The translations under genes were made by a program, and so were the position numbers. A stretch of 64,000 bases of DNA. Source: Dehalogenimonas alkenigignens (GTDB lineage: Bacteria; Chloroflexota; Dehalococcoidia; Dehalococcoidales; Dehalococcoidaceae). A model generated the notes under the pieces. That model did not search any database. It was not told where the DNA came from and saw only the letters and a list, made by a program, of their open reading frames with translations. Positions 18,343 through 54,557 of the stretch are shown here, one piece after another (positions within the stretch are counted from its first letter, which is position 1; the number at the start of each line of letters is the position of its first letter). The stretch spans positions 555,684-619,683 of the forward strand of contig NZ_KQ758903.1 in the NCBI RefSeq assembly GCF_001466665.1. Reading direction: 5' to 3'.

Positions 18343-18361
18343 CATGTTAAAATAACCTTCA

Positions 18362-23839: not shown

Positions 23840-23842
23840 CCT

Positions 23843-26975: not shown

Positions 26976-26993
26976 TATCACACAAACTAAATA

Positions 26994-35033: not shown

Positions 35034-36311
35034 ATGCCGGTAACTGCCTCGCCCTTCATCCTCCTGGCCGCCGCAGCGCTGGCCCTTGGCTGCCTGCTGG
35101 GCGCCTTCCATTTCTACCGGCGCCGCCGCCTGATTGATGAAACCCCCACATCGAAGACCCGCGGCGTCTTTATCGGCCTGGCGGAGGTCAAAGGCACCGC
35201 GGAGTCGGAAACGCCGCTGGAAAGTTACCTGGCCGCCGCCCGCTGCGTCTGGTACTCCTATAAAGTGGAGGAGCACTGGCAGCGGACCACGGTGAACGCC
35301 AAAGGCCACGTCCAGACCCAGAGCGGCTGGAAGACCGTGGCCTCGGAGACCAGATATGTGCCTATTTTCCTGAAAGATGATACCGGCGTCCTCCGCGTCA
35401 TGCCGGAAGGCGCCGAGGTCCACGCCGATAAAGTCTTCGATAAAACCTGCCGCCGCGACGATCCGCTCTACTACGGCAAGGGGCCGGCGAAGGCGGTCGG
35501 CGGCTCCACCCACCGGCGCCGCTTCACCGAACTGGCGCTGCCCCTGCACGATGTCATCTATGTCATCGGTCAGGCCAAGGAGCGGCAGGATGCGGTAGCC
35601 GCGGAAATCGCGGCGCGCAAGGGCTCCATGTTCATCATCTCCACCCATGAGGAGAAACACCACTCTGACCGGTTCCGGCTTTTCTTCTGGCTCTGGCTGG
35701 GGCTTGGAATAATCGTCTCCGGCGGCGGCGCGGCGTTATACCTCCAGCAGGGCTGGCTGACTTCCTACGCCCCGGCGATTCTCTCCTCGGTCGGCATCTA
35801 CCTTGGCGCAGCGGCGATAGCCTGGGTGTGGACGGCTTACAACAGCCTGGTAAACCTGCGCCAGCGGGTACGGCAGGGATTCTCCCAGATTGACGTGGAA
35901 CTCAAGCGCCGGGCTGACCTGATTCCTAACCTGGTTGCCGTCGTAGAGGGCTTCCGCCGCCACGAAAGCTCGCTTCAGCAACTGGCCGCCGAACTTCGCA
36001 GCCAGGCGGCGGCCGCTGGCAGAGTTGACGAATCACACGGCTTGTCAGGCGCGCTCCTGGCTGTTGCCGAAAAATACCCGGAACTCAAAGCCGACCGCCA
36101 GTTCCTGGCGCTCCAGCTGGCGCTAACGGACACAGAAGAGCGCCTGGCGTTGGCCCGGGATTACTACAACTCCATCGCAACCTTTTTCCGGACGCGGCTG
36201 GAGGTTTTTCCGGATGCGCTTCTGGGCCGGCTGCTGGGTTTTCAACCCCTGCCGCTGCTTGAGGCCGAATCTTTCGAGCGGGCAGCGGTCGCGGTCAGTC
36301 TGGCCGCCTAG
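35034..36311 (+). CDS. GIDE-like plus LemA-like membrane protein
   Basis: 425 residues. An N-terminal membrane anchor is followed by a region with GLAEVKGTAESETPLESYLAAARCVWYSYKVEE, like the GIDE domain of mitochondrial E3 ligases and their bacterial homologues. Two membrane segments follow (about 218-240 and 250-270). The rest is a LemA-type helical domain (NSLVNLRQRVRQGFSQIDVELKRRADLIPNLV ... ALARDYYNSIATFFRTRLEVFPDALLG). No RING finger is present. Role unknown; probably envelope-associated. Confidence 0.8.
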   Translation: MPVTASPFILLAAAALALGCLLGAFHFYRRRRLIDETPTSKTRGVFIGLAEVKGTAESETPLESYLAAARCVWYSYKVEEHWQRTTVNAKGHVQTQSGWKTVASETRYVPIFLKDDTGVLRVMPEGAEVHADKVFDKTCRRDDPLYYGKGPAKAVGGSTHRRRFTELALPLHDVIYVIGQAKERQDAVAAEIAARKGSMFIISTHEEKHHSDRFRLFFWLWLGLGIIVSGGGAALYLQQGWLTSYAPAILSSVGIYLGAAAIAWVWTAYNSLVNLRQRVRQGFSQIDVELKRRADLIPNLVAVVEGFRRHESSLQQLAAELRSQAAAAGRVDESHGLSGALLAVAEKYPELKADRQFLALQLALTDTEERLALARDYYNSIATFFRTRLEVFPDALLGRLLGFQPLPLLEAESFERAAVAVSLAA

Positions 36312-37156
36312 ACGATGCCAGCGAGCAGCATCAGGCCGTAACCCAGGCCGGCGGCGGCGGTGATAGGCGGCATGGCTGGCGTTGGGCCGCCCTTGAAGAA
36401 TGCCCGCTGCACCCAAAAAACCGAAAGCAGTCCCAGCATCAAAGCGCCAGCGGTCAGGAAAGCCGGGACAATCCCCGCCGCTGCCAGCACCGAAACCAGG
36501 AGTATGAGCGCGAAACCGACATCGCCGCCGCCAAGCAGGGATACGATACGCTCGTCAGCCTCGTTTTCCAGCCGGAGGTCAGATAACTCGATGCTCCAAT
36601 CGGCGCCCCGGCGCGGGAACACGAAAGCCGGCACGATGGCAACGCCGGAGAGTTTCTTGACCATCCACATCATATGCCCGGATTTAACCGAGACCAGGTC
36701 GTAAATTGAGATAACCGCCATGATGACCAGCACCGAGCCTGGTGACAGGATGAAACCAAAGACCGAGCCGTAGCCAGCCAGGGCAACCCCCAGAAGGAGG
36801 TTATGCAGCCACAGCCGTGGCCACTTGAGCCAGGCCAGCGCCCCGGTCAAGGCGATAACCCCTGCGGCCGCCGCCGGCAGGGTGAGCCCAAGCACCACGA
36901 AGACGCCCCAGGCGTAGAGCAGCAGGAACATGCCCTTGATGAGGTACTTAAGGAACCGCAGGGGTAGTAAAGCCAGCGTCAACCCCAAAACAGCCACTGT
37001 GAGGGAAAAATATACCAGAGGCGGCCCGGCGGTGATTTCCGGCAGGATGATGCCCTCTTCCTCGATAAAGACCTGTTGGCGTAATGAAACGGCAATGGCT
37101 AGCGCTTGGCAGGCTGCCAGAGTGATCAGGCTATAATGCGTTGAATTCAGTTTCAC
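36308..37156 (-). CDS. Presenilin/signal-peptide-peptidase-type intramembrane protease homologue
   Basis: 282 residues with about nine hydrophobic segments. It carries the three hallmarks of A22 aspartyl proteases: YD (Tyr152-Asp153, in ISIYDLVSV), GxGD (GGGD, Asp212, in LLGGGDVGFAL) and a C-terminal PAL-like motif (TPAMPP, about 259-264). These are the catalytic aspartates and substrate-gate motif of presenilin and archaeal homologues. Such genes are uncommon in bacteria. It overlaps the GIDE/LemA gene by 4 bases, convergently. Confidence 0.8.
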   Translation of the reverse strand: MKLNSTHYSLITLAACQALAIAVSLRQQVFIEEEGIILPEITAGPPLVYFSLTVAVLGLTLALLPLRFLKYLIKGMFLLLYAWGVFVVLGLTLPAAAAGVIALTGALAWLKWPRLWLHNLLLGVALAGYGSVFGFILSPGSVLVIMAVISIYDLVSVKSGHMMWMVKKLSGVAIVPAFVFPRRGADWSIELSDLRLENEADERIVSLLGGGDVGFALILLVSVLAAAGIVPAFLTAGALMLGLLSVFWVQRAFFKGGPTPAMPPITAAAGLGYGLMLLAGIV

Positions 37157-37415
37157 AACAGCAGCCGCGGCGGATGAACGTCCAAAATACGGGTAGGTTC
37201 TGTCATGAACATCGAAAAGGTGTTAGAAGGGGCGTCGGCAGTCGGCGCCGGGGGCAGGCATAAAGATGGCAGTGAAATCTGCGGAAAAAAGTTTTGGTGG
37301 AGCCGGAGTATCAATAGGTAGAACCGGCCAGGACTTCGAAGTGAGTTTTGGCCTGAGCCTTTAAGCCTAAAGTTCGAGTCCCCACAAATGGAGAAGTGGA
37401 GCGTAATTAAAACGT

Positions 37416-38093
37416 TTAACGAGGCCAAACTATCCAGCCCTTTTTGCCTACGGCATCCTTCAGTCCTTGGCTGCTACACTCAGGGGCAATCAAGTAGGTC
37501 CGCACACCTTTCTGTCTGAGGTCATTTATCAATTCGGCAAAATCCCCATCCTGCGTAATCAAGACAAAAATCGTATTCTCTGCATTCTGGTTGCAGTCAC
37601 TCCATACCTGAGAATCGAGTTCTTCGTCAACGTCATGATCGAACTCTTGTAAGCGCCACCCTAATTTTGCCATCTCGGTGGTCGTTGTCGCGTGGATTGG
37701 ACTCGCGAAGACCTTAAAAAGGCTATATGTGATGGTAGGGAATCGTTGGTTTAGGTAGGTTCGTATGAACGAATCCCGTTTTCCAAATTCCTGGGGTGAA
37801 ACGGCTAAGTTCTGAAAATCCCAGGCGACAATTAGCCTGGAACGACCCTGCTCGACCTTTACTTGAGTTTTCACGAAGAATTCTGGCTGAACCCTGTTCT
37901 CCACAGCGATTGAGTATATTCCTGCCAGTGAATCTGCATCCGGTTTGACGGTGCCTTTTTCCCATCGAGATATCGCCGCTTTGGTAACTCCGAGTTTGTC
38001 AGCGAATTGCTGTTGGGTTAACCTTAGTTGGTTACGGACGCCCAAGATGCCCTCTGGATTGAAGACGTACAGACTCGATTTTAATGGAGCCAT
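37416..38093 (-). CDS. XRE helix-turn-helix plus NYN-domain protein
   Basis: 225 residues from the ATG at 38093 (GGAGG 10 bases upstream). An N-terminal XRE helix-turn-helix (LRLTQQQFADKLGVTKAAISRWEKG) is joined to an NYN/PIN-like nuclease fold: LIVAWDFQNLA, an Asp in SQVWSDC, and LITQDGDFAELINDLRQKG, with acidic residues where a metal-dependent RNase would have them. It could regulate itself and act as a nuclease or toxin-type component. It stands at the left edge of the defence island, divergent from the operon. Confidence 0.75.
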   Translation of the reverse strand: MAPLKSSLYVFNPEGILGVRNQLRLTQQQFADKLGVTKAAISRWEKGTVKPDADSLAGIYSIAVENRVQPEFFVKTQVKVEQGRSRLIVAWDFQNLAVSPQEFGKRDSFIRTYLNQRFPTITYSLFKVFASPIHATTTTEMAKLGWRLQEFDHDVDEELDSQVWSDCNQNAENTIFVLITQDGDFAELINDLRQKGVRTYLIAPECSSQGLKDAVGKKGWIVWPR

Positions 38094-38124
38094 CGCTTTT
38101 TGCCCTCCTACCCGCGTTAGGATT

Positions 38125-38190
38125 ATCTTACCATCCTGGTCCGAGCTAGTCAATACCTATATGATAACAGATGTTGCTATATATGATAAC
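38125..38190 (-). promoter_or_regulatory. Promoter and direct-repeat operator of the XRE-NYN gene
   Basis: On the minus strand TTGACT (38148-38153), 17 bases and TAAGAT (38125-38130). Just upstream of the -35 the 11-mer GTTATCATATA occurs twice (38158-38168 and 38180-38190), 22 bases apart, two helical turns, as expected for a repressor such as the XRE protein. The rest of the gap to 38758 shows no convincing gene; a 65-codon ORF at 38477-38674 has no recognisable features. Confidence 0.6.
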
Positions 38191-39081: not shown

Positions 39082-41244
39082 ATGGAAAATGAGCCTAATG
39101 TCTTCTCTGTCAAAAGTGTTTCCTGGAAAGGTCACTTAAAGCGTATTCGATTAGAGCCAGGGGGAAAGCTGTTTGATCTTCCCCTATCTAGTTGTGTCAG
39201 CGAGGGTGACAAAATCACTTCCAACTCATCAGGTTCGTGGGTGATTTGCAAGAATGGCTTGGCACAAATACTAAATCCTTACATAGCTCGCGAGACGTTA
39301 CATTTGGGCGCCATCCGGTTAGAAGTAGTCGTGAAAGAAATTACTGAGGCAGACGAGTTCAAGGCATACTCTTCTCTATCAGAATTTCATTATCGCAGCC
39401 ATGTTGTGCATGGCCGAACGTCCCGTCTAGTTATCCGAACGTTCGATCCAGTTTATCCTAAAGTCGTAGGCTTCATCGAGTTGGCGACTCCTTTCTACAT
39501 GAACAAGGCACGCTCAACAATCCTCGATGCGCCATTGAACATCGACTCTATCGAATGGCAGCGTTGGGATATGCCTACGCTCCGTAAATACATTCACCTG
39601 ATAGCACGAATTGCCAGAGTAGTTGTGTACCCAGAGTTCAGAGGTTTCGGGACCGGCCAGATGCTTGTCAAACATGCAGCCGAATTTGCAAAAACACGAT
39701 GGCAAGTTTCAGGCTTAAAACCTTACTTCCTGGAAATCTCTGCCGACATGATCAAATACATTCCATTTGCTGAACGTGCGGGCATGATTTACGTTGGTGA
39801 TACCCAAGGCAATCTGCAACGCGTGGCAAAAGATATGAATTATCTCATCTCACGCTTCGGGACAAATCATGAAGGGCAAGCAGATTTTGAGAAAACCTGC
39901 GGGATCTGCGATCAGCAAGTCTCCCGAATGACGACGGCGTTACAGATCATGGAGCAAGAAAAGCTGACACGTGAAGACCTTATTAAGAGGTTAGGCAGCC
40001 TATCAAAAGAGAAGGTGTTGAAGGATTTTGCCTTATTCCATAAGGTAGTTACTCTCCCGAAACCGCATTACATGCTGGGATTGCATCCAGTAGCCCAGGA
40101 ATTTCTAATAAAGCGGGTAGCAGAGACCTCAATGCACAATGGCAAAACACCGCCAGCCGTTAGCGTTCAGCCGATCGCAGATTCGATCCGCCTTAACAGA
40201 CTGGGAGTAACATATGTCTCCCACGTTCGTCGCACCCAAAAGACCCATGCCGTGCAGCAAGCATTTGGCATCTCCCCCGATGATTTGAGAACCGCGGTGA
40301 TCCGTAACCTATCCGTCGAACTACCGCCAGGAACAATAACCCTAGTCGTTGGACCCTCTGGGTCAGGGAAAACGACGTTATTGGACGCGCTGCTCGGCAG
40401 TTTTACGAAGCGGCATGATGCGCAAATTGATGGGCAAGTGATAATGCCTCGAAATAGCAAGATTGGAAGCTTTGCATCAACACGGTCTGAAAAGGCGCTG
40501 GTTGAAGTTCTCGGCACCAAAGATGTCGAGCTTAGCCTTTACTTACTCGGTCTGGCCGGGCTATCCGAAGCGTTTTTGTATCTCAAGAGGTTTAGCGAAC
40601 TGAGCGCAGGTCAGAAATATAGGGCAATGCTCGCGCGACTGCTCGCCTCTGATCGCAATGTTTGGGTTGCAGATGAATTCTGCGCAAATCTTGATCCAAT
40701 TACTGCCAATTTAGTCGGCCACAATGTTCAACGCATTGCAAGGAAAGTCGATGCTACAGTGATACTGGGGGCTTCTCACTCTGATCATTTCGTCCAATCT
40801 CTCAAGCCTGACATAGTCATACAACTGACAAGTGCCTGGGAGCACGCGATTATGCCAGGCAATGAATATTGTCGCATGATGGTCAGCCATGCGAGAAACG
40901 GACATATACCTTCTGTTAAAATTCCATCTAGCTTCATGGGAGCAATCCGCGAGGGAAGGGGAACAGCAGCCATATGCGCTGGTAAGAGAGAATTTGCGTG
41001 CGAACTTCTGTTGGTTGAAAGCGGTGCTGAAAGCATTTGGGTCAGAATCGCTAGTGTCGAGCATAAAGAGATAAGCCAAATTACCGATAGGGATGCACAA
41101 AAAGTTGGCGCGTTATCGGTTGATGAGCTGACGATGACGTTGAACGAAAGAAGCTCGGGATCTCAAAGCAGAGCGTTATTCACGATAGTACACTTCGATT
41201 CCCTGCTCGGTGGGACTCCCGGAGGGAACAAGGCAGGGATCTAA
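39082..41244 (+). CDS. GNAT acetyltransferase-ABC ATPase fusion (COG2401-like)
   Basis: 720 residues, no membrane segments. An N-terminal part (about 80-250) holds a GNAT-like acetyl-CoA loop (VVVYPEFRGFGTG, about 181-193). A C2-type cysteine pair (CGIC, about 273-276) follows. The C-terminal ABC ATPase has Walker A GPSGSGKTT (about 424-432), signature LSAGQ (507-511) and Walker B WVADEFCANLD (about 528-538). This matches the ABC-ATPase/acetyltransferase fusion of COG2401, known mostly from archaea. It lies 40 bases before the drmE-like gene, so it appears to be part of this DISARM operon. Confidence 0.75.
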   Translation: MENEPNVFSVKSVSWKGHLKRIRLEPGGKLFDLPLSSCVSEGDKITSNSSGSWVICKNGLAQILNPYIARETLHLGAIRLEVVVKEITEADEFKAYSSLSEFHYRSHVVHGRTSRLVIRTFDPVYPKVVGFIELATPFYMNKARSTILDAPLNIDSIEWQRWDMPTLRKYIHLIARIARVVVYPEFRGFGTGQMLVKHAAEFAKTRWQVSGLKPYFLEISADMIKYIPFAERAGMIYVGDTQGNLQRVAKDMNYLISRFGTNHEGQADFEKTCGICDQQVSRMTTALQIMEQEKLTREDLIKRLGSLSKEKVLKDFALFHKVVTLPKPHYMLGLHPVAQEFLIKRVAETSMHNGKTPPAVSVQPIADSIRLNRLGVTYVSHVRRTQKTHAVQQAFGISPDDLRTAVIRNLSVELPPGTITLVVGPSGSGKTTLLDALLGSFTKRHDAQIDGQVIMPRNSKIGSFASTRSEKALVEVLGTKDVELSLYLLGLAGLSEAFLYLKRFSELSAGQKYRAMLARLLASDRNVWVADEFCANLDPITANLVGHNVQRIARKVDATVILGASHSDHFVQSLKPDIVIQLTSAWEHAIMPGNEYCRMMVSHARNGHIPSVKIPSSFMGAIREGRGTAAICAGKREFACELLLVESGAESIWVRIASVEHKEISQITDRDAQKVGALSVDELTMTLNERSSGSQSRALFTIVHFDSLLGGTPGGNKAGI

Positions 41245-41284
41245 AACAAGTCCAATAAATTAGAACATGCGGCAGGAATATACT

Positions 41285-43807
41285 ATGGAAGTCCAGGAAT
41301 TTGCCAAGTGGATACGCATTAGTTTTGAATCCCTGCCAAGATCGAAAGACCCATTTTTTTATAAGTTATGGCATGACGGGAAGATTCGTTATAAGTCCAA
41401 CCTGGTCAAACAGGATTTGCTCGGAGAACTATGTGCTAGGCTAGTGTGCGCGACTATAGCTGAAAAACAACAGACTTTATTACTTATGCCCGATTCAAAC
41501 CGAAGCCTGGTGGCGGAGCTTCTGGCTACAGGGTTGATTATGAGTTCAATTGATGCAATACAAACAAAACAACGAGGGAGAAGAGTCTTATATTTTGGCG
41601 TGACAACAGGCATAAAGTCCGACCTCTCAAATGTATCAATAGGGAATCTTCCAATGGGCGAGGTCTTTAGACAGACCTACCAACGAGGGGGCCCTGATAA
41701 GCCCCAAAGAGTTATCGGGACGCTACCAACTGTCGTTTGCATTTATTCTCCTTCCGACCCGGCATCTTCAGTATCCAAATATTCTCCTCTTTGGGTAGCA
41801 ATAGATTGTGGAGACACTTCCTCAGTTTGGTGGCTGCCTTCATTACTTCCACTCCTTCATGAAAAGGGAATTCCCACAATAGCGTGGTCATCTAATCCTC
41901 TGACTTCTATCAGGCACGACTTCCAATCGATTGATGCCCATGTATTCAGGATCCCTGATAACAGAGGAGCAATTAGTTCCGACATTTTCCGTTTGTTTGT
42001 AGAATCACCTTCGGCAACGAAGGTTGTTCCGCTAGTCATAAGTGGTGACTTCGCAGATAACCTGTCGGGTAATCTTCGCAAGGCGTATCACGCGCTGGCC
42101 GCGGTTATGGCGGAAAAACCGGGACGACTGGGGCAAGATGCCCTAGCAGTAAGTTGGAGATACTTGAGATCGTTGGAAAGGTTAGCCATTCCCCTCGGGC
42201 TTTTTGAATCAGAGTCTGTTCAATATTGGGGGGTTAAACCAATAGGTCGTCTGCGCAGCGCATGCGAAAAATTCCTCTCTGCCATTCATCTCGGATCTTC
42301 AGTTAATACCAGGAATCAATTGGAATTGGCAAAAACCCATTTGGATATTGTTTATAATACGCTCCAACAAAATGACCCTCCTCTTTGGAATTCACTTATT
42401 GATCTTTGCTTAGTGGACGTACCAGCGGGACATGCAAGGGTCATCATTTTCCCAAGCACAGCCTCGAAGTCGATGTTCTCATTTGCTCTCTTGGCACGGA
42501 CTAAGACCTCAGAAAAAGATTTGGCCAAGATGCGCGTCTGGCTTATGCCATTAAAGGATGCGGCCTCAAGATTACAGAGTACTTCCAGAGACGAAAAAGA
42601 GGAATTTGGCTCTAGTTCAGCTGAGAACATGACCAGTGAACGTTTGCCTGAGGATGTCGTTTGGGATGTGATTCTCGTTGGACTACCTAATCAAAAACAA
42701 TCGGAGAAGATGGCTCCGTTCCTTTGGCATGGCAAATGCAATTTCCTTCTGTACCAGCACCAGGTGCCAGCTTTAAGTCGCTTGGCTCGCGCATGGGGAG
42801 ATGCCCTAAAGAGTGATACTGTGGCCCTTGCACAAAGCCTTTCGGGGCTAACTGGATTGGCGTTACCGAAGGATATCCCCGACTCGCCACCCATCTGCGA
42901 TGTTGATGATGCTCAGACTATCCTTGGTGGAGAACTCACCAAGCTTGCGCCTCAAGCATCAAAATCGATATGGGAGCCCAAATCGGAGGTCGACGAAGTC
43001 GCTTTCTTATTCAAAGACGACGATTCAGACTCTTCGGAGACTGATTACGAGGGGATTGTTTTTGAAGAAGAACCTGACTCTGATAACGGTCAAATAGTTG
43101 TGGTCGACAAAGCTCTTGAGGTCAAGTTCACCGGAGGTTGGTCGGGGCTATTTGCCCAAAACATGCTGCTAAATGTGGTCACAAACGCGTCAGCCGGATC
43201 CAAAGTGGACAGACGTTATGCTAAATCTCTTCGTCCCGGCGATACAATTATCTATATTTCAGGTCAGAGACGCCAGAGCCTGTACGAATTGGTTCTCTCA
43301 CGAGTACACAGGCATCCTTCAATTGAAATTCATTTAGCACTGATTCGGCAATGGCAAACTGAAATCAGGCAAGGGTACCTTGATTGGACCAAACAAGGCC
43401 ATTCTCTAAATAAACTTTTCAACGAAATGATTAAGCGTGGTACTCAATTGGAAACTGATATGGCACTTCGCTTCTGGGTGTCGGGCTACACATTGCGTCC
43501 ACGCGATCGGGAGGATATGCGTCGCATCGCAGAGATACTAAATCTACCGTTCACTCGCGAACACTATGTAAGAATTCACCTTGCAGCCGACCGTATTCAT
43601 GGTTTACATATATCCCTCTCTTTAAGACTGAGCGGCTGGATAAAGTCAGGGGCAGCCGAAGCTACCGACGACCTAATAGATGAGGCTACTGGCTTAACCT
43701 TCAGCGATGTTCGAGACTCTCTATTACTTTTGCACGTCGAGTCAGTAACCGAGATATCCGGGCCTTTTTACGAATCTACCCTCGGACGGATTGAAAGGAG
43801 CAACTAG
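41285..43807 (+). CDS. drmE: DISARM protein DrmE-like
   Basis: About 840 residues, cytoplasmic, with no motif recognised with certainty. It has an acidic stretch (KDDDSDSSETDYEGIVFEEEPDSDNG, around residue 577-605) and a GDTIIYISGQRR segment after it. Its size and its place directly ahead of drmA, drmB and drmC match drmE of class 2 DISARM; the name rests mainly on this context. The ATG at 41285 has AGGA upstream; an ATG at 41267 is also possible. It ends just before the drmA start. Confidence 0.55.
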   Translation: MEVQEFAKWIRISFESLPRSKDPFFYKLWHDGKIRYKSNLVKQDLLGELCARLVCATIAEKQQTLLLMPDSNRSLVAELLATGLIMSSIDAIQTKQRGRRVLYFGVTTGIKSDLSNVSIGNLPMGEVFRQTYQRGGPDKPQRVIGTLPTVVCIYSPSDPASSVSKYSPLWVAIDCGDTSSVWWLPSLLPLLHEKGIPTIAWSSNPLTSIRHDFQSIDAHVFRIPDNRGAISSDIFRLFVESPSATKVVPLVISGDFADNLSGNLRKAYHALAAVMAEKPGRLGQDALAVSWRYLRSLERLAIPLGLFESESVQYWGVKPIGRLRSACEKFLSAIHLGSSVNTRNQLELAKTHLDIVYNTLQQNDPPLWNSLIDLCLVDVPAGHARVIIFPSTASKSMFSFALLARTKTSEKDLAKMRVWLMPLKDAASRLQSTSRDEKEEFGSSSAENMTSERLPEDVVWDVILVGLPNQKQSEKMAPFLWHGKCNFLLYQHQVPALSRLARAWGDALKSDTVALAQSLSGLTGLALPKDIPDSPPICDVDDAQTILGGELTKLAPQASKSIWEPKSEVDEVAFLFKDDDSDSSETDYEGIVFEEEPDSDNGQIVVVDKALEVKFTGGWSGLFAQNMLLNVVTNASAGSKVDRRYAKSLRPGDTIIYISGQRRQSLYELVLSRVHRHPSIEIHLALIRQWQTEIRQGYLDWTKQGHSLNKLFNEMIKRGTQLETDMALRFWVSGYTLRPRDREDMRRIAEILNLPFTREHYVRIHLAADRIHGLHISLSLRLSGWIKSGAAEATDDLIDEATGLTFSDVRDSLLLLHVESVTEISGPFYESTLGRIERSN

Positions 43808-43808
43808 A

Positions 43809-46800
43809 GTGGCTAGCATGTCTTGGACTTCGGAAGAAGAAATCAAACTCACACAACATCTCGTTGACCAAATCTGTTTCAAGGCGTTCGGAAGAAGTGA
43901 AGACGAATGCGTAGGAAACTTTCCTAGAGATGTTTATTTCATAGGCAACCTAAGACCTAAAAGTGACGTCTCCGAGGACAACCAGCCTACGTCGCTACGG
44001 GAATTACTCAGCAAGATGTCTCCCATGGCGTTCGGTGCCGAGTTCCGATTAAAGCCAGAGGAACCTGAACTAATCGTTAATGTTGGCGTTAACTGGTCCT
44101 GCTACTACAGAATTTTCCCAACGTTGAACCAACAGCTCTCGTTCTACCAGCAAGCAACGTCAGCAACTGAGAGCCTGACTGCAGAAAAGCCATCGACTAA
44201 CCCACAGCATGGACCTCAATCCAATCCGGTCAATGAAGAAGCTGAGAATGAGTTGGAGAACGATTCAGAAGAGGCCGCCGCGGAGCGGATTGAAAAAGAT
44301 TCACCAGAGGTAGCACTGTCCACGTCTGATCGTAAGCGGCCAAAAGCACAAAAAGACGAACTCCTGAAACGCTTTCGTAAAATAACCTGCCTAGCAAAAG
44401 GAAGGATTTATCTTCGACATATTGGAGATGAATGGGTCATAGACACACATGAATTACGTGACGCTCTTCGGGCAGAAACAATACGTGCACAACAAATTGC
44501 GATGAACGATCCAGACCGAATCAGAACCTCAGGGGCTCAAACGGAACGTGTGCGGGTTACTGAAACCTCCTTAACCTCAGCAGCCAGCTACGCTAGCTTT
44601 ATTCGTTCACTTACCAGTGACGTGATCCCGGAATGGAGATGGGAATTGCATGCCACCGTCCGACAATACAATGACCCTTCAGAGTGTACCCTGCTGTTGG
44701 AATTTGTCAACGCTTCTCCTATGCCAGATGAAGCCCCAAATACAGAAGCCTTTTTGTTCGATACCAGGGCTGATTTCAGTTTCCTTGGTGGCCTCGTGCT
44801 TCCCTTTGAATTGAATTTAGCTCCGCGTAGCTTCCGTAATGACCGAAGATTATGGGGGCGAGGGTTCAATTGCTCGGTTGAGCCTGAATATGATAGTTCC
44901 GGCTCGGTAAAGGTTTTGGCGACGACTCATACACCAACTCACAGACAGATGCGCTTTGTCACCCGGATTTCCCCTTCTGCTCGCTTCGCTGACCTCACAC
45001 AAGATCCTTTTCCTACGCTCGAAGCAATACTGAACGCAATGACTGAATATAAACAAGTGTGGGAAAGCGCAGAGAATCAATATGCAAATAACGACCCAGG
45101 ATGGCAGACTGAATTTGGACCAGAGTTTCGTAAAGACCTTCAACAATTTGAGGCAGAAATAGACCTTTTCCGGCGCGGTTACAAATTGATCCGAAGCAAC
45201 AATGATATAAGATTAGCTTTTCAACTCACGAATGAAACTTTCCTTCGAGGCGACCCTAACAAAACGGCATGGCGACTTTTTCAAATTGTCTTTATTGTTA
45301 GTCAGATACCCGGGATCATGGCGCTTGCCATGGCCAATGGTCCTTACGAATCCGAACGAGAAATGGTTGACATCATATACTTCCCCACAGGCGGTGGCAA
45401 AACCGAAGCATACCTAGGAACCACCGTCTTTCATTGTTTCTTCGATCGTTTAAGAGGAAAGACGGCAGGCGTGACAGCATGGACGCGGTTCCCGTTGCGT
45501 CTACTAACATTACAACAAACACAACGCGTCGCAGATATTATTGGACTAGCCGATTTGGTTCGGCGAAGTCACAATGACCCTCGGCTCTCAGGTCCAAATG
45601 TTGATGGATTTGCTGTTGGCTACTTCGTTGGGAAGGAAGCAACGCCTAATGACATAACTCCTCCGTTTTCTAACGAGCCACCAGACCCGCCTTGGAGTCA
45701 AGCGAACGATCCGGTAGCTCGCCAACACTGGAAGAGAGTGGTTCGTTGTCCCTCTTGTCGTACTTCGACTATTAGGGTTGATTTTGATGCGTCAAGTGTT
45801 CGAATCATTCATCGATGTACAAACCATGATTGTAGTTTTCAAGATGGCGTGATTCCGGTTTACGTTGTTGACAATGAGATTTACCGCTATTTGCCAAGCG
45901 TGATCGTCGGTACCATCGATAAGCTCGCAGGCATAGGCAATCAACGCAAGTTATCACAGATATTTGGCCAAGTAGACGGGCGTTGTGTTGCGCATGGCTA
46001 TTACAAGGGGAAATGCTGCCAGAAGGAATGTACAGATCGAAGCCGACTTCGTCCCGGAGCCCCTTCGGGAGTGTCAGGACCAACTCTGTTCGTTCAAGAT
46101 GAACTACATCTTCTAAAAGAGGGGCTAGGCACCTTTGATTCGCATTATGAAACCTTCGTTCAGCGTTTGAGGCGAGAATTCGGTGAAAATAATTCCATCA
46201 AAATCATCGCGTCTTCAGCGACGATTGAATCGTTCGCAAGACAAACGGAGCACCTATATGGTCGCGCCCAAAATCAAGCCCGCGTGTTTCCAGGACTTGG
46301 GCCGACTCTAGGGGAATCATTTTATGCGCAAACTCTGACCTACCCACAACGCCTGTTTATCGGATTAATCCCTCACAACAAAACGATTTTCAATACAATG
46401 CTCGAAATCATAGAGTATTATCACCGCGAGATCCAAAACATGCAACAGGTATCCGTGAACCAGCCAAATCCCTATGGAGGACATCTATCGCCAGGCACCA
46501 AAGAATACAGAGAATTACTTGACTCGTACATAACATCCCTGTCCTATTTCTCAGCTAACCGTGAGTTAAATTCCATACGTACCGACCTGGAAGGAGATGT
46601 GAACCCTAATCTAGAGCGTGATGGGCTATCAGGGTTAGAAATTGCTGAGCTTACCGGCAGCACCAGCACTGACGATGTCACGCTTATACTCGAGAAATCT
46701 GAAAAGATGTCGCTAGCAAATCCACAACCGGTTTCCATTCTTGCGACGAGCATGATTAGCCACGGTGTTGATGTGGACCGCTTCAATACCATGATTTTCT

Positions 46801-47396
46801 ATGGAATGCCTCGACAAAACGCAGAATATATCCAAGCTTCGAGCCGCATTGGACGCACGCACATAGGGGTTGTATTGTGCTGTCTTCATCCAGTCCGTGA
46901 AAGAGACCAAAGCCATTATTCATATTTCAACAAATTTCATGAGTTTCTCGGACAACTAGTCGAACCTGTGGCTATTAACCGATGGTCGAAATTTAGCATT
47001 AACCGGACGTTACCCGGATTGTTTATGGGGATATTGTTGCAACTCGTCGCAAACAATTCCACTGAATCCAACCCCGATAGATACTACAAGCTTGACTTCG
47101 TTAAAAAGAAGATAAGCGATGGAACCATCAAAGCTGATATGTTCACACCTTTCCTGGAGGAAGCCTACCTAGTACAGGCGGCCGCCAGCAAAGGGGAAAA
47201 CACATTTCGGGATGAGATTCATGTACGAGTTCAAGAATTTTTGGACCAAATTGTCGGCTCGAGTTCAGGAATGATTTTCGTCTCGGATGTGCTGATACCC
47301 CGGCCTATGCGCAGCTTAAGAGACGTTGACGATCCTATCGAGATAGATCTCGACGACGTTGGTACCCAATGGACTAATAAAATGCGCAAGTGGTAA
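43809..47396 (+). CDS. drmA: DISARM helicase-type protein DrmA
   Basis: About 1195 residues. Superfamily 2 helicase parts: Walker A PTGGGKTEAYLG (about residue 525), Walker B-type QDELHLL (about 763), and a C-terminal RecA-like part with SMISHGVDVDRFNTMIFYGMPRQNAEYIQASSRIGR (about 980-1015). A C4 zinc cluster (CPSC ... CTNHDC) lies between. In DISARM, DrmA and DrmB form the core complex that senses and handles invading DNA. GTG start at 43809 with AAAGGAG upstream; an ATG at 43818 is close behind. Confidence 0.88.
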   Translation: MASMSWTSEEEIKLTQHLVDQICFKAFGRSEDECVGNFPRDVYFIGNLRPKSDVSEDNQPTSLRELLSKMSPMAFGAEFRLKPEEPELIVNVGVNWSCYYRIFPTLNQQLSFYQQATSATESLTAEKPSTNPQHGPQSNPVNEEAENELENDSEEAAAERIEKDSPEVALSTSDRKRPKAQKDELLKRFRKITCLAKGRIYLRHIGDEWVIDTHELRDALRAETIRAQQIAMNDPDRIRTSGAQTERVRVTETSLTSAASYASFIRSLTSDVIPEWRWELHATVRQYNDPSECTLLLEFVNASPMPDEAPNTEAFLFDTRADFSFLGGLVLPFELNLAPRSFRNDRRLWGRGFNCSVEPEYDSSGSVKVLATTHTPTHRQMRFVTRISPSARFADLTQDPFPTLEAILNAMTEYKQVWESAENQYANNDPGWQTEFGPEFRKDLQQFEAEIDLFRRGYKLIRSNNDIRLAFQLTNETFLRGDPNKTAWRLFQIVFIVSQIPGIMALAMANGPYESEREMVDIIYFPTGGGKTEAYLGTTVFHCFFDRLRGKTAGVTAWTRFPLRLLTLQQTQRVADIIGLADLVRRSHNDPRLSGPNVDGFAVGYFVGKEATPNDITPPFSNEPPDPPWSQANDPVARQHWKRVVRCPSCRTSTIRVDFDASSVRIIHRCTNHDCSFQDGVIPVYVVDNEIYRYLPSVIVGTIDKLAGIGNQRKLSQIFGQVDGRCVAHGYYKGKCCQKECTDRSRLRPGAPSGVSGPTLFVQDELHLLKEGLGTFDSHYETFVQRLRREFGENNSIKIIASSATIESFARQTEHLYGRAQNQARVFPGLGPTLGESFYAQTLTYPQRLFIGLIPHNKTIFNTMLEIIEYYHREIQNMQQVSVNQPNPYGGHLSPGTKEYRELLDSYITSLSYFSANRELNSIRTDLEGDVNPNLERDGLSGLEIAELTGSTSTDDVTLILEKSEKMSLANPQPVSILATSMISHGVDVDRFNTMIFYGMPRQNAEYIQASSRIGRTHIGVVLCCLHPVRERDQSHYSYFNKFHEFLGQLVEPVAINRWSKFSINRTLPGLFMGILLQLVANNSTESNPDRYYKLDFVKKKISDGTIKADMFTPFLEEAYLVQAAASKGENTFRDEIHVRVQEFLDQIVGSSSGMIFVSDVLIPRPMRSLRDVDDPIEIDLDDVGTQWTNKMRKW

Positions 47397-47417
47397 ATCT
47401 CAGAAAGGAACAGAGTT

Positions 47418-49280
47418 ATGGGACGTAAGATGCAACGCGGCAAACAGCAGATAATGTTCAATTACCTTCCGGGAAAAACCTTTGATTTTGAGCGAGTTGC
47501 AACAATCGCGAAAGTGGCTAACATTCGAGGGGTGCAGCGGACCGATCTCAACGCAGTAGTTCTTCTTCGTAATGTTGCTGACGAAGCGAGGGCTTGGCGT
47601 CAGGATTTCAGGCCCTTGCTCAGAGATGACGTGCTGCGCGACACATCCAGATTTGTTTTACTTGATCCGCAGAGCGTACAGTCAGAGATTTTCCCGAAAG
47701 TGCTCTGGTGTCAAAATCGTGTTTGCGGTCGAGTGTTCGATTTTACTGGGAAAGATTCGTTGCCAAAGTTATGTCCAACTTGCAAGCGTGGAGAACTGAT
47801 GCAATTACGCTGGGTAAAAATTCATCGTTGCGGCGCCGTGCAGGCACTTCGGCCACCTCCCTGCACTCAGTGCCATTCTTCAAATAACATGGCTCTTGAC
47901 ACGCGAGGAAGCGAACGAATATCAAGTTTTCGATGGATATGCAGACAATGCGGAAGCGCAGTGCCGGTTTTTGGTGGATGGTGTCCAGAATGTCAGTGGC
48001 CCGACACTGACCCAAATCTAAAGCGAATGGACGTTTTAGTTCACCGCGCTGGGCCGACGTTCTACGCACACACCGTTGTTCTCCTCAATATCCCTCATCG
48101 GCAGCTTGATCCTTTCTTTAATTTGCCTGAATGGCCTGCCATTGTGGCGGGAAAATTTATTGGTCTCCCGGAAGTTGGGCACAAACCGCTTAATGAATTT
48201 TCCTCTGTCTCGCCACACAGTCACGAAAACACAGGTGTTGGATTATCGGGAGCTGATTTGGACGGCCTATTAAGGCGGCAAGCGAGCGGTGAACTTACTC
48301 CGGAACAATTCGTAAAAGAGATGGAAGCTCTACGCCGGCAGCGTGAACAAGAAGGTTTAGCCTCTTCCCCAAGTGGCATAATAATGGCTCTTGAACAACG
48401 TACGGGTGTGCAGAGGCAGGTATGGGAGCGCGCGGGTCAAGGTATGTTGGACGCAATAATGCCAAAGGAAACTGGGCGTTCCCAGGAATTGTTTGATAAT
48501 GCCTCCGCCGTTTCAACTGTCGAAACCGCACGAGGATTGGGATTATCTCGTCTGACATTAGTTATGGATTTCCCTATCATTAACGCCTCTTACGGATACA
48601 GTCGAGCTGAGTACTCGCCTAAGCAATGCCGCCTCAACCCCTTCCCGCAAGACCGTGAGCATGGCGGTAAGTTCCCCATTTTCGTAGACCAAGTACAAGC
48701 CGATGCTCTCATGTTAAGTCTGGACCATAACCGTGTTCTAAAGTGGCTGGAAAGAAACGGATTCAACCCCAAATTACCAAACGGAGGTGACAAAGACCTT
48801 TCGAGCAAGGCGTATTTCGTTAGATTATTCGACAATATCCCTTTACGTGAAACTTTGGGTGCCGATAATCCAGAGGCCCGAATGGTGTTTGGCTTGCTTC
48901 ATACGCTGAGCCATATTTCAATCCGCCAAGCAGCCCTTCTATGTGGCTTAGATCGGACGAGTCTGTCTGAATACGTTTTACCATCAGCGCTCATGTTTGC
49001 CTTCTATAGTAATCATCGGTTTGGAGCTACTATCGGAGCTTTGACTGCTCTCTTTGAACAATCCATTGACGAATGGCTCAATGCGATTCATGACGCTGGC
49101 CGTTGCGTGTACGACCCGGTTTGCTTCGAACGCGAGAGCAGCTGCCACGCGTGCACACACTTGCCCGAGACGAGCTGCAGATTCTTTAATCTTAATCTGA
49201 GTCGTTCGCTACTTTTTGGTGGCCCGGACCCAAAACTTGGAAATATTAGCGTCGGATACCTCGATTCTACACTGAGATGA
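47418..49280 (+). CDS. drmB: DISARM DUF1998 protein DrmB
   Basis: 620 residues with several zinc-type cysteine pairs (CPTC, CTQC, CRQC, CPEC between about residues 118 and 200) and a C-terminal DUF1998 region with CVYDPVCFERESSCHACTHLPETSC. DUF1998 proteins pair with DrmA helicases in all DISARM types. It lies 21 bases after drmA and just ahead of drmC. Confidence 0.88.
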   Translation: MGRKMQRGKQQIMFNYLPGKTFDFERVATIAKVANIRGVQRTDLNAVVLLRNVADEARAWRQDFRPLLRDDVLRDTSRFVLLDPQSVQSEIFPKVLWCQNRVCGRVFDFTGKDSLPKLCPTCKRGELMQLRWVKIHRCGAVQALRPPPCTQCHSSNNMALDTRGSERISSFRWICRQCGSAVPVFGGWCPECQWPDTDPNLKRMDVLVHRAGPTFYAHTVVLLNIPHRQLDPFFNLPEWPAIVAGKFIGLPEVGHKPLNEFSSVSPHSHENTGVGLSGADLDGLLRRQASGELTPEQFVKEMEALRRQREQEGLASSPSGIIMALEQRTGVQRQVWERAGQGMLDAIMPKETGRSQELFDNASAVSTVETARGLGLSRLTLVMDFPIINASYGYSRAEYSPKQCRLNPFPQDREHGGKFPIFVDQVQADALMLSLDHNRVLKWLERNGFNPKLPNGGDKDLSSKAYFVRLFDNIPLRETLGADNPEARMVFGLLHTLSHISIRQAALLCGLDRTSLSEYVLPSALMFAFYSNHRFGATIGALTALFEQSIDEWLNAIHDAGRCVYDPVCFERESSCHACTHLPETSCRFFNLNLSRSLLFGGPDPKLGNISVGYLDSTLR

Positions 49281-49281
49281 G

Positions 49282-49827
49282 ATGATTAGCACCGAAAACA
49301 ATTACGATCAATTAGAGTTGGTCATCACCCCTCCAGAACCTTACGGAGCACAGCTAGCGCATCAGTTTCGTGCGCGTACGACGATTGGGGTTTTGACACA
49401 GCTGGTTGCCCAAGCAAAGATGCATATACTAATAGCTTCTCCCTTCGTGCAGGCTAGTGATAATCAAACGGGCAGTCCTTTAGCGGACGCATTAAGGCAC
49501 GCTTTGAACAGGAACGTTCGGCTTGATGTCATCTCCACTTTGCCTGGGATTAACATCTTTAAAACGGGGTGGGTTTCCTCTGTGGGAAATACCCGGGTCA
49601 ATCTATACCGACCAATGCCAAACGTTAAGGATGAAAAACTTTTAGGATCACATGCCAAAGTATTTGTCGTTGACTCCACCCATGCATATATTGGTAGTGC
49701 AAACCTTACTAGTCCTGGACTAACGGGCAACCTCGAAATGGGGGTCCTGGTGCATGGCAAGGTGGCAGCAAACGTCGCTTCATTCTGGGAATACCTAATC
49801 ACGAATGGATTTTTGCTTAAGGTATAA
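49282..49827 (+). CDS. drmC: DISARM phospholipase D-like protein DrmC
   Basis: 181 residues with one HKD motif HAKVFVVDSTHAYIGSANLTSPGL (about residues 114-137), the catalytic signature of PLD-type nucleases. With one motif it probably works as a dimer. It follows drmB by one base and closes the operon. Confidence 0.85.
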   Translation: MISTENNYDQLELVITPPEPYGAQLAHQFRARTTIGVLTQLVAQAKMHILIASPFVQASDNQTGSPLADALRHALNRNVRLDVISTLPGINIFKTGWVSSVGNTRVNLYRPMPNVKDEKLLGSHAKVFVVDSTHAYIGSANLTSPGLTGNLEMGVLVHGKVAANVASFWEYLITNGFLLKV

Positions 49828-49904
49828 TTCATCGATTCGTAAGCCGCGATCCACCACTATTTCCAAAAGATTGAAATTCGTTTTGGTGTAGTCTTGCGTT
49901 TCTC

Positions 49905-52691
49905 CTACACTTGGTCGCGTTCCAAGTTTAAAGTTAGTAAACGCGATAAAATATCGTTCGGCGTTAAGTCAACAGCCCAACCGTAAGCCTGAAAAACGGC
50001 TTGATCTAATTCATAATGAGCTAGGTCAAGCCAGGTAGGTCGAGAGTTGTATAGGTTTGTGAGGGTTCTGTTTCTTAGCTCACTTGAACTGTATTCACCG
50101 TCCGAAGGATTCAACCACCGCTCGCGAAATTCGTTTAGGCGTTTGGCGGTGATAGAGATGGCTTCCGTCTGCTCGGGAGTGGGACTGGGGAAAGGAAATG
50201 TTTCAAACGTCGTCGTCGGAGTGTACCTAAATCCGCTTATTACATCCCTAAGCTGGGTCCCCATTGCGCGAGCCCAAAGTTCGTGAACTTTAGATTGGAG
50301 TATCCCAAACGTGTAATCGTCATCCCTTGCAAAAACAAGTGTGCCTTGATTGCAAAGGACTGCATGCGGCACCCAGACAAATATCCTGTGTTTAGAAACG
50401 CCAGGAGTAGCTAAATAACGCTCCTTGCCATGCAAAGCTGCGCGCATTCCAGGCCGAGATTCGGCATATTGCCACCATTTGGCAGCATAGCTTGAACGGC
50501 GATTCTTAGAACGAATCGGATAGACTGTCTTTTTAACATATTCAAACGGCAATTCGTAATACGCAGCTTCCTTTTCGGACATCAAGCCAAAATCTATTGT
50601 CCATTTATTCCTAGTTCTTTGAACGAGGTCAACTGCGCTTGCAACAGGACGTACAACGTCCGAGTTAGGACGTCCATTGATGTTGATGGGGGCTTTAAGA
50701 AATGTCCTCGCCAAAGGTGTGTTGATATCGAAGGGTGCCTTCGCCGAAGGACCCATGTAACAAATATTTAAATTTTCTTTTAGGCGCCTTGCCTTCGTCA
50801 GATCGACGCCGGCAGTCAAATCAGCATTGATTGAAGTGACAGGATTACCATCTAATGTCTTGTTATGCTCAGAACCTTCATCAAATCCGATAATGGATAT
50901 GTGGACGTTAGCTCCATCTAGTATCCATGGACGATCAGCGTAGGCAAAGAAGATGTCCCCGGTCTGCTTAATTCGTTCTAACACTCTTCTACTAGTTATA
51001 CCCCGGATTCCTTGGGTGGCAAGAAGACCGGCTCTATTAAGATGCCGATATTCAATCATCGCACGTGCTTTTTCAAGCCAATAGCAACAAAGATCACTAG
51101 AATTGGGTATACGGTCACCGTACAAACTAAATAGAGCGTCTACATACTCGTTCCCAAGACGAGAGCGTAAAAGGCCACTTCCCAAAAAGGGGGGATTACC
51201 CACGATCACATCGGCATCAGGCCACTCCGGTTCTCTTGGGTTAGCTGGATCGGTTCTATCTAGTATGGCGTCCATATGATGGATATTTTCGAGTGATTGA
51301 AGTATTGGGTTTTCATTCTCGAGGTCAATGGCATTTCGGTATTTCCATTGAATGTAGCCAATCCAAACAACCGCCGAACTCAGCTGGTGTGCGTATTCGT
51401 TGATTTCGATCCCAAACAATTGTCTGGGGTGAACTTTGGGCGCCAAACCTTGAATACCATGCATAGCGGCAAACGCTAATACTTCTTTTTCCAGTGCTTT
51501 CAACATTGAAAGGCTTGTGTACAAGAAATTCCCAGAGCCACAGGCAGGATCAAGAACTCGTATGCTGCTTAATCGCTTTTGGAATTTGGAGAGTGATGTG
51601 TAGAGTTCCTTTTGCTGGCTTATATTCGCCGATTCACGCCAAGACAATAACGGCTCAGCTTTCGACTTTATTTCTGCCCATTGTGCCCGGAGCGGAGACA
51701 TCAACACTGGTTCAACAACAGTTTGAATGTCTTCTTTTGAGGTATAGTGCGCGCCTAATTCTGCCCGCGTGTCAGGGTCTAAAATCCGTTCAAACAAAGT
51801 TCCAAATACTGATGGTTCGATGTCCGACCAATCTAGCCGATCAAGACGTTCCAAAACATCAATCTGGTCGGCTAATACTTCGGGAACAATTGAATCGTCA
51901 AACAGCCCGCCATTAAAATGGGGCACTCGGTGCATTAAGAATTCACCGCCATCTCTCATCGCTGTAAACAATTCGCCTAGATATTTACGAAAAAAAGCGG
52001 GTTTACCTTTGTTAAGGCGAATTATGTTGGTAAGCGACTCCTTGGATAATAGGCCGACATCGCTGGCAAAAAAGCAGAAAATCATTCGCATGATGAAGCG
52101 AGCGATTTCGTGGTCGGTGATATCGGTCAGCTTGCGATACTGCCGCATATTCTCAGCCAATTCACCTAAAAGCCTGGCCGCTTCTTCGGTCAATTTTTCT
52201 GGCGTTTTGCCTGGATTTAGCTTCTCTGGGTCTTCGAATAAAGCCCGTAAAATATCAATTGCCGAGAAACGTGACCCGCTAACCGGGGATTCGACTGCAA
52301 TATCATCGTTAGTAAATTTGTAGATGCGCTTGACGGTATTGTTGAAGTTTGTATGTATTTCAAAATTCTCGAAATCGCACACAACAAGAAGTGGAGGATT
52401 GCCCAAAGCATCGCGATATAGCTGAAGTTGGCTGTAAGCGACGACTAAGTCTTTGTGCCGACCTTTATATTCCCATGCAAAATGATCTTTACGCCAGACG
52501 TCGGCGAAACCGTCACCTCCGGCTTCTTTCTTTAAGCCCTGGTCGAACGTGAAAAATAGCCCCAACGGATCAGCTTCAGCAGGAGTAGCGACTTTAAGCA
52601 AACGGCATAAGTCTAAAAAGTGCTCTTGAGAGGATTGCCGCTCCCTCAACCTCGTACGCCCCCACTTGGCGACAAATTCGAGTGGTATCAC
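49905..52691 (-). CDS. Type IIL (MmeI-like) restriction-modification enzyme
   Basis: 928 residues combining cleavage and adenine methylation. The N-terminus has a nuclease motif D-X9-E-X-K (Asp64, Glu74, Lys76 in DVWRKDHFAWEYK), matching MmeI. A helical linker follows, then a gamma-class N6-adenine methylase with motif I DPACGSGNFL (about 383) and motif IV NPPF (about 498), and a C-terminal target recognition region. GTG start with AGGAG upstream. Convergent with drmC. It could be the modification arm of the DISARM locus or a separate system. Confidence 0.85.
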   Translation of the reverse strand: MIPLEFVAKWGRTRLRERQSSQEHFLDLCRLLKVATPAEADPLGLFFTFDQGLKKEAGGDGFADVWRKDHFAWEYKGRHKDLVVAYSQLQLYRDALGNPPLLVVCDFENFEIHTNFNNTVKRIYKFTNDDIAVESPVSGSRFSAIDILRALFEDPEKLNPGKTPEKLTEEAARLLGELAENMRQYRKLTDITDHEIARFIMRMIFCFFASDVGLLSKESLTNIIRLNKGKPAFFRKYLGELFTAMRDGGEFLMHRVPHFNGGLFDDSIVPEVLADQIDVLERLDRLDWSDIEPSVFGTLFERILDPDTRAELGAHYTSKEDIQTVVEPVLMSPLRAQWAEIKSKAEPLLSWRESANISQQKELYTSLSKFQKRLSSIRVLDPACGSGNFLYTSLSMLKALEKEVLAFAAMHGIQGLAPKVHPRQLFGIEINEYAHQLSSAVVWIGYIQWKYRNAIDLENENPILQSLENIHHMDAILDRTDPANPREPEWPDADVIVGNPPFLGSGLLRSRLGNEYVDALFSLYGDRIPNSSDLCCYWLEKARAMIEYRHLNRAGLLATQGIRGITSRRVLERIKQTGDIFFAYADRPWILDGANVHISIIGFDEGSEHNKTLDGNPVTSINADLTAGVDLTKARRLKENLNICYMGPSAKAPFDINTPLARTFLKAPININGRPNSDVVRPVASAVDLVQRTRNKWTIDFGLMSEKEAAYYELPFEYVKKTVYPIRSKNRRSSYAAKWWQYAESRPGMRAALHGKERYLATPGVSKHRIFVWVPHAVLCNQGTLVFARDDDYTFGILQSKVHELWARAMGTQLRDVISGFRYTPTTTFETFPFPSPTPEQTEAISITAKRLNEFRERWLNPSDGEYSSSELRNRTLTNLYNSRPTWLDLAHYELDQAVFQAYGWAVDLTPNDILSRLLTLNLERDQV

Positions 52692-52832: not shown

Positions 52833-54557
52833 ATGGAAACCCAGAAGGCTGAGCCCAAAACGAAAGAGCCTGAAGACTTGATAGCCGATTTGGACGAAGG
52901 CCCGTGGCCAGGCCCCATAGAATACGCTGTTCCCTCCAAAGAACTAAGTATAGGGACTGGTGTTTTACGTGACTGCGAAAAACTAACCGTGTGCAAACAC
53001 AAAAAGCGCAGCCATTGGTGGTTAACTGCGTCAGCCCAAGTCAATCCGGAAAAATGCAAACAAATCCGTTGGGATTACCGTGCGAGTGTGACGACGACAG
53101 ATCAAAGTGAGCGGAAGTTCGGGGGCACATGTGTGGCAGCACACTATTTGCCAGGAAAACCGTTGGAGCTGTCATTCCATGACCATTCCCTTGAACTTAC
53201 TAGAACACCTATCACGCTGTATTCTTTCGGCCTATCAAACAAGGAATTAATGTATTGGATACCACTACTGGCCGGACTCCCAGGATCAAATGTCCCTGAT
53301 TTGATTCATGACCAACAATTAAGGCCGTTCATTTATGCGGTTCCCATTCAAGGCCTTGAGATGAAAGACCAAAAAAGAATGCTCTGGATCACTGACATGG
53401 GTATCTCCGGCGGTGAAATGGATGATGTGGTGTACCCGATCGTTAATAAGTTAAAAATCGACGAAAGACATCCCGAATGGAGGAAGGGTACTCCACACGT
53501 GTTCGGAGTTGTTATGGCGAAAACACTCCTTGAGGCAGAGGAGTTTGGATTGGAACGAGCGAGGTTAACCATCGACGTAATCAATTTCGCACTTAAGACC
53601 GGAGTGAGTCACCTAGAAACCCGACGACAAAGCGAATTACTTGGATGGAATTGTGAATATCTCGAATCTAATATTAAACTAACTGATTGGATTTTCATCA
53701 GAGAAGTCCAAAGCATTAAGGGTTGGATAAGAATTCCCAAAATCCAACCGGATAAACAACAGCTTGATTTAGAATCAATTTCACAACGACTGTTGATATT
53801 TATACGTCGATTCCAGAAAATATTTACTGAAGGGGGCGTGGCTTGTCAAACGGGAAAGCACGTCCTATCCAAAACAGAGAATAAACTGATTTCAGGACTG
53901 CAAAGAGCAATCCATTGGTATGCGATTGGCTCCAGTGAAGTTAGCATCCTCGATAAATTCTTGGGCTGTTGGATTGCACTAGAGTCGGTTCTAGATACGA
54001 TAAGCTACCCCGCAGTGTTTAGCGGAACCGGAAAGCCTGTCAAGCACACTTTGGAAAAAGCGATCACCAGTATTCAATATCCCAAAAATGCTGAAGAGTT
54101 ACTAACCATTTCACCGGAAATGTTACAGAGAAGGTTACTTGCGAGCGATTGGCCTCTTTCTCGCAAGTTAGAGTTATTCGCTAAGAGTATAGGGGTACAA
54201 TTACAAAACGGTGACGTCGCGCTAATCCAGCGATTAGGGAAATTGCGTGGACAGGCTCTTCATTGCGGCAACCGTGATTCAGGCATTTCGGCGCTAATGA
54301 TGAGGGAACTTGAATACCTTACGGAGCGTTTGATTATTGGAGCTTCCATCTGCGCATACAAGAAAATTGAGGATGGAAGAATCCACGAAATTAAAATTCT
54401 TCCTCTTGGACCAGAAGGTGGCGCTGCACCACTCCTTTTGGATGGAAAGGATGTTGGATATGAGTTTTATCTCCAGACCAATGATAAGGGCGAACAAACC
54501 GAAGAATGGGTAATCGAAGGCATTATTTATAATGAAACCAATTCAAAGATTGTGTGA
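52833..54557 (+). CDS. HEPN-domain protein, putative defence RNase
   Basis: 574 residues. The first part is not recognised. The last third is helical and contains WIALESVLD and then LRGQALHCGN, with Arg472 and His477 forming the RX4H signature of HEPN nucleases, as in the ApeA-like group. A GGAAGGGG site precedes the ATG. It is divergent from the type IIL enzyme, sharing a 140-base gap, at the right end of the defence island. Confidence 0.65.
   Translation: METQKAEPKTKEPEDLIADLDEGPWPGPIEYAVPSKELSIGTGVLRDCEKLTVCKHKKRSHWWLTASAQVNPEKCKQIRWDYRASVTTTDQSERKFGGTCVAAHYLPGKPLELSFHDHSLELTRTPITLYSFGLSNKELMYWIPLLAGLPGSNVPDLIHDQQLRPFIYAVPIQGLEMKDQKRMLWITDMGISGGEMDDVVYPIVNKLKIDERHPEWRKGTPHVFGVVMAKTLLEAEEFGLERARLTIDVINFALKTGVSHLETRRQSELLGWNCEYLESNIKLTDWIFIREVQSIKGWIRIPKIQPDKQQLDLESISQRLLIFIRRFQKIFTEGGVACQTGKHVLSKTENKLISGLQRAIHWYAIGSSEVSILDKFLGCWIALESVLDTISYPAVFSGTGKPVKHTLEKAITSIQYPKNAEELLTISPEMLQRRLLASDWPLSRKLELFAKSIGVQLQNGDVALIQRLGKLRGQALHCGNRDSGISALMMRELEYLTERLIIGASICAYKKIEDGRIHEIKILPLGPEGGAAPLLLDGKDVGYEFYLQTNDKGEQTEEWVIEGIIYNETNSKIV

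Follow-up and report, generated by a model that had tools for sequence, protein, structure and literature searches.

The locus lies in a 64-kb stretch of the closed 1.85-Mb genome of Dehalogenimonas alkenigignens (G000; C1:555684-619683), which is referred to here as the window. It comprises a set of genes on one strand (+) followed by a convergent gene (Table 1). The core genes drmE-drmA-drmB-drmC span 41267-49827 (+) and are preceded by a gene that codes for a fusion of a GNAT acyltransferase and an ABC ATPase (GNAT-ABC). All reading frames of the core are open and intact, and the spacings from GNAT-ABC through drmE, drmA and drmB to drmC are 22, -17, 21 and 1 bp. The drmA gene starts with TTG and has an alternative in-frame ATG at about 43818. 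The original prediction placed the fusion gene at the head of the operon; it is indeed found upstream of drmE, but since a gene for a 77-aa MarR-like winged-HTH (wHTH) protein lies 90 bp further upstream, GNAT-ABC is probably the second gene of the operon. Promoter and terminator scans of the locus gave no excess over shuffled sequences.

Table 1. Features of the locus and its surroundings, in window coordinates.
Feature	Position	Strand	Basis or remark
HTH-NYN domain protein	37416-38153	-	Island edge, just past 37308 (end of G178 similarity); GC 48%
Winged-HTH (MarR-like) putative operon regulator, 77 aa	38759..38992	+	Pfam MarR_2 7.4e-07, MarR 2.2e-05
GNAT-ABC, 720 aa (P0001)	39082..41244	+	Pfam ABC_tran 5.9e-16, Acetyltransf_1 8.1e-05; motifs
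drmE, 846 aa	41267..43807	+	Pfam DrmE_C 9.1e-69; PADLOC DrmE 2.6e-12; NCBIfam DrmE_fam 76.4 bits
drmA, YprA-type SF2 helicase, 1201 aa	43791..47396	+	PADLOC DrmA 8.6e-154; DrmA 7S9V 1.1e-55
drmB, DUF1998/MZB protein, 620 aa	47418..49280	+	PADLOC DrmB 5.8e-58; DrmB 7S9V chain B 1.3e-08
drmC, PLD-family nuclease, 181 aa	49282..49827	+	PADLOC DrmC 5.8e-20; HKD and GSxN motifs
MmeI-like type IIL restriction-methylation enzyme, 928 aa	49905..52691	-	PADLOC REase_MTase_IIG 1e-256; four MmeI Pfam domains; MmeI 5hr4 1.8e-45
574-aa protein of unknown family	52833..54557	+	Same low-GC island; HEPN-like R-x4-H motif RGQALH at residue 472
DnaN-like (sliding-clamp) gene, 401 aa	56216-57421	-	
Two reductive-dehalogenase genes and two B12-binding radical SAM/PqqD-like genes	16839-28520		

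Profile matches confirmed all four core genes, in the class 2 DISARM order that had been read from the sequence at the outset. The protein put forward there as a DrmE of 840 residues scored 231 bits against Pfam DrmE_C (cut-off 27) and is thus the drmE product expected of class 2, while its NCBIfam DrmE_fam score falls slightly short of the cut-off of 80. DrmA carries the motifs GGGKT at 534 and DELH at 770 and is accompanied by a separate DUF1998 protein, DrmB, a pairing typical of DISARM that was recognized both by PADLOC and by comparison with chains A and B of the Serratia complex (7S9V). The DISARM PLD nuclease DrmC has its HKD motif HAKVFVVD at 124. Because its match covers only profile positions 93-266 of 269, the N-terminal part of a typical DrmC is absent here; most DISARM nucleases have been described with a four-helix bundle (PMC12458937), and the absent part may be this bundle. 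All four proteins score below the NCBI curated equivalog cut-offs (DrmA 424.6 against 950, DrmB 66 against 240, DrmC 84 against 133 and DrmE 60 against 250), and the locus therefore represents a divergent DISARM-like lineage. The closest DrmA among the compared loci is 38% identical and comes from G059, whose locus (L012:767-14283) contains drmMII, an HhH-GPD gene resembling type II nicking endonucleases and a convergent gene for a 1227-aa caspase/NACHT-like protein. Matches to mad3 and mad8 were mostly P-loop matches and were not taken as evidence of a MADS system.

The GNAT-ABC protein consists of an N-terminal region, the GNAT domain, the ABC ATPase and a C-terminus that probably is a degenerate ASCH-like domain. 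Its motifs are intact (acyl-CoA RGFGTG at 187, Walker A GPSGSGKT at 424, signature LSAGQ at 507 and Walker B VADE at 529), and a GNAT with an acyl-CoA motif fused to a single complete ABC ATPase places it in the GNAT-ABC family. A profile of the GNAT part built from eight family members and run against the PDB matched generic GNATs around the RGFGTG motif, and gave no match to Mom of phage Mu. The last ~100 residues resemble ASCH weakly (E 0.065; 14.4 bits, below the cut-off of 21.2), whereas the homologue L035 has a clear ASCH domain (2e-6) at the same position. A separate ASCH gene, convergent with the GNAT-ABC gene, is present in L038 and in Thermomicrobium (L045). The ASCH domain has been described as a binder of modified DNA (PMC10853773). 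A single-sequence structure model of the fusion protein had a mean pLDDT of 34 and was set aside.

The genome has a GC content of roughly 57%, and most flanks of the locus have 56-60%. Between ~38 and 55 kb of the window the GC content drops to 45-50%; the parts of this island all have 44-49% GC, with the GNAT-ABC and DISARM genes at 47-49%, and we therefore regard it as acquired. In the nearest relative examined, G178 (40 kb compared), DNA similarity is 89% over 34946-37308 and stops at 37308, which also places the locus in a variable, probably acquired region. Taken together, the base composition and the break in similarity indicate that the DISARM-like operon was probably acquired horizontally. 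Direct repeats were looked for at the island ends and none were found. The same island includes the 574-aa protein, which has no Pfam, PADLOC or PHROG match; its HEPN-like motif was called by pattern only and does not imply membership in the DISARM-like system. Beyond the island, the DnaN-like gene has four close copies in the genome (53-100% identity) as well as one distant clamp, and with several copies in relatives too it looks mobile. The dehalogenase genes lie in the first half of the window and, together with the small genome and the GC content of the flanks, fit Dehalogenimonas (Chloroflexota).

A C5 methylase (drmMII), which belongs to class 2 DISARM, is lacking here as originally predicted: PF00145 gave no match in the whole closed genome, while 10 of 14 control genomes were positive. 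The further claim that there is no methylase besides the convergent MmeI-like enzyme is true of the locus but not of the genome, which encodes others, each far from the DISARM-like locus: a type I hsdM at ~37-46 kb of the genome, accompanied by hsdS-like and hsdR-like genes (the latter 1166 aa), an enzyme of type ISP at ~198-201 kb and, at 1731 kb, an N6_N4 methylase. An N6_Mtase match at 1596425 lies after an RF-1-like gene; it resembles PrmC and was discarded as a DNA methylase. A separate DISARM methylase elsewhere in the genome was named at the outset as speaking against a new variant; there is none of the C5 type, while one of the distant adenine or N4/N6 methylases could act for DISARM in trans.

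Where other DISARM-like loci carry their methylase was compared in a small sample of drmE or DISARM-like loci that was not randomly drawn. A C5 methylase lies upstream in Allocoleopsis and, together with the HhH-GPD gene, upstream of the core in G059; Rubrobacter has an N4/N6-type methylase immediately upstream of drmE, Streptomyces a divergent N6_N4 methylase upstream, and G158 has DrmMI upstream of the core genes. The C5 methylase is downstream of the core in G034, G300, G165 and Halorhabdus. Different methylase families thus substitute for one another beside the core genes, and at the window locus GNAT-ABC fills such a place. In two haloarchaeal loci, Halomicrobium and Haladaptatus (L048 and L049), the annotation shows no methylase immediately next to drmA, and a DISARM-like locus can therefore lack a modification gene.

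These observations point to a divergent class-2-like DISARM operon in which GNAT-ABC would replace the DNA methylase as the modification enzyme, a reading to which we give slightly less than an even chance. That immunity would tell self by an acyl mark placed by GNAT-ABC on DNA bases instead of by methylation is a more tentative proposal, possible but somewhat less than probable. In such a system GNAT-ABC, as an ATP-driven dimer bound to DNA, would transfer an acyl group from acyl-CoA onto a base of host DNA. DrmAB, with DrmE, would load onto unmodified foreign DNA and be restrained by the modification, and the invader would be stopped by DrmC or by the translocation of DrmAB itself. The ASCH-like C-terminus, if real, may read or edit the acyl mark, and the small wHTH protein would control expression of the operon. 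Unmodified DNA with 5' overhangs is known to activate DrmAB, whose ATPase is reduced, but still supported, by methylated DNA (PMC9142583). A GNAT coupled with an ABC ATPase is predicted by Iyer et al. (PMC7824862) to carry out an uncharacterized acyl modification of a DNA base; this prediction concerns GNAT-ABC proteins broadly. It has also been proposed that a GNAT marks self in the BREX-related BRC systems (PMC12839542).

To see how GNAT-ABC is distributed, searches with P0001 or alignment A1 covered overlapping sets of 400, 294, 41, 47 and 399 Chloroflexota genomes, an estimated ~700 different ones. They yielded one other full-length close GNAT-ABC, in G157, with 46-47% identity. More distant homologues in Chloroflexota (33-37% over the ABC part) are solitary among housekeeping-looking genes (L035-L040, and also L045); RNA or protein may be their substrate. 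Of 400 Chloroflexota genomes, 6 contain DrmE_C, our own among them (G000, G034, G059, G158, G165 and G300), and none of the other five has a GNAT-ABC nearby. For phyla beyond Chloroflexota, the sampling consisted of plasmids, phages and viral contigs plus one weak genome-contig scan; the sequences aligned for DrmE diverged too strongly to be used as a scan query. In plasmids and phages the tblastn matches covered the ABC part only and lay beside ParB genes (SSU5-like phage-plasmids), Thermomicrobium excepted; those of the small adjoining phage genes that were tested are not GNATs, and neither A1 nor the GNAT segment had a match in the viral contigs. The genome-contig scan with P0001 returned a lone partial P-loop match (L021), a secretion/pilus-type ATPase that we rejected as spurious. 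Three of the loci collected (L044, L046 and L047), from SSU5-like phage-plasmids and Rhizobium phages, carry a GNAT-ABC-related ABC ATPase beside ParB-like genes, and in RHph_X66 it is followed by a Tad2-like gene (Thoeris anti-defence).

A recurrent association of GNAT-ABC with DISARM, suggested at the outset as a check, was thus not borne out: in the Chloroflexota sets, phages and plasmids there was no second case, and with no other drmE genome having GNAT-ABC nearby the linkage is not recurrent in the searched data. This single occurrence is in accordance with an alternative in which GNAT-ABC, as a defence or housekeeping gene in its own right, lies by chance upstream of a DISARM operon whose methylase was lost or was never there, and self-discrimination is achieved by DNA structure (5' overhangs and the trigger loop) alone. 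The recognition of DNA structure by DrmAB, the reduced ATPase that it retains on methylated DNA (PMC9142583) and the two haloarchaeal loci fit this alternative as well. On the other hand, GNAT-ABC is only 22 bp from drmE on the same strand and matches it in base composition, and its homologue in G157 heads another multi-gene defence-like operon, so that we consider an independent gene unlikely. The latter operon (L034:9452-16033 in G157:C18) has five genes; after GNAT-ABC come, at short distance, those for a HerA-like ATPase (DUF87), a wHTH protein of 393 aa, a nuclease of the PLD family and an ORC/CDC6-like ATPase. It is in its own right a candidate defence system, and PADLOC matches no whole system there. 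GNAT-ABC is the only close homologue that the two operons have in common, their PLD nucleases being alike only around the active site. Its presence in two unrelated defence-like operons suggests that GNAT-ABC moves as a module between them.

The original prediction offered the fusion protein as a sensor or regulator, and in a broader form of this alternative it could be a protein-modifying effector, for example one in which infection triggers the ABC switch and the GNAT then acetylates DrmA or a target in the host. Defence systems often use ABC ATPases as switches. In DndF, GNATs are found among the variable effector domains at the N-terminus, and it has been proposed that they act on proteins (PMC10853773). 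We nevertheless find a sensor or effector role quite unlikely, as the operon already has its wHTH regulator and GNAT-ABC sits where several relatives carry methylases. A role in DNA modification suits the protein better because of this methylase-like position, the second, unrelated operon and the published prediction.

The convergent MmeI-like protein aligns with MmeI (5hr4) from residues 58 to 912 and unites in one chain the parts of a type IIL enzyme, namely the DX9EXK nuclease motif (at 64), DPACGSG (at 381) and NPPF (at 499), a helical spacer and a TRD, so that the nuclease motif noted from the outset is confirmed as intact. That this enzyme supplies the DISARM methyl mark, also put forward in the original prediction, appears highly improbable: its gene directly adjoins the operon in the same low-GC island, its methylase motifs are intact and its C-terminal half partially matches DrmMI profiles (1.2e-73, residues 494-906), but the type IIG restriction-modification match is far better (1e-256), the nuclease motif makes it a complete restriction-modification enzyme, it is encoded on the opposite strand, and the convergent neighbour in G059, the closest relative, is the caspase/NACHT-like gene instead. 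Since it is convergent and has its own nuclease, and since none of the other DISARM loci compared was seen to have such a neighbour, it is more simply explained as an independent system, and is probably a self-sufficient restriction-modification neighbour that would work separately from the DISARM operon.

If GNAT-ABC is indeed the modification enzyme, the locus would provide a naturally occurring case of a DISARM operon with another DNA mark in place of methylation, and DrmAB could pair with different base modifications. The long-standing prediction of DNA acylation by GNAT-ABC would then become directly testable. We found no literature linking Dehalogenimonas or GNAT-ABC with DISARM, though a mention in Iyer et al. 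2013 or Krishnan et al. 2020 is possible.

With respect to known systems, the convergent protein resembles MmeI-type (type IIL) enzymes over its whole length and in its motifs, with no notable difference. HerA/FtsK capture systems combine HerA, an ORC/CDC6-like ATPase, a wHTH protein and a nuclease (PMC10853773), which the G157 operon resembles, and BRC systems add a GNAT or a TGT as proposed self-marking enzymes (PMC12839542). The window locus lacks HerA, PglZ and TGT. With class 2 DISARM the locus shares the drmE-drmA-drmB-drmC order and its helicase, DUF1998 and PLD parts; it differs in that the genome has no C5 methylase, the proteins fall under the NCBI curated cut-offs, DrmC is N-terminally short and GNAT-ABC is added, and the genes, their order and their spacing support the earlier notion of a DISARM variant with an acetyltransferase-ABC fusion in the operon. 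Finally, GNAT-ABC has the same fusion of a GNAT and a single ABC ATPase, with intact motifs, as the family that Iyer, Aravind and colleagues (PMC7824862) predict to acylate DNA bases, and the window member is distinguished from that family by its place in a DISARM-like operon.
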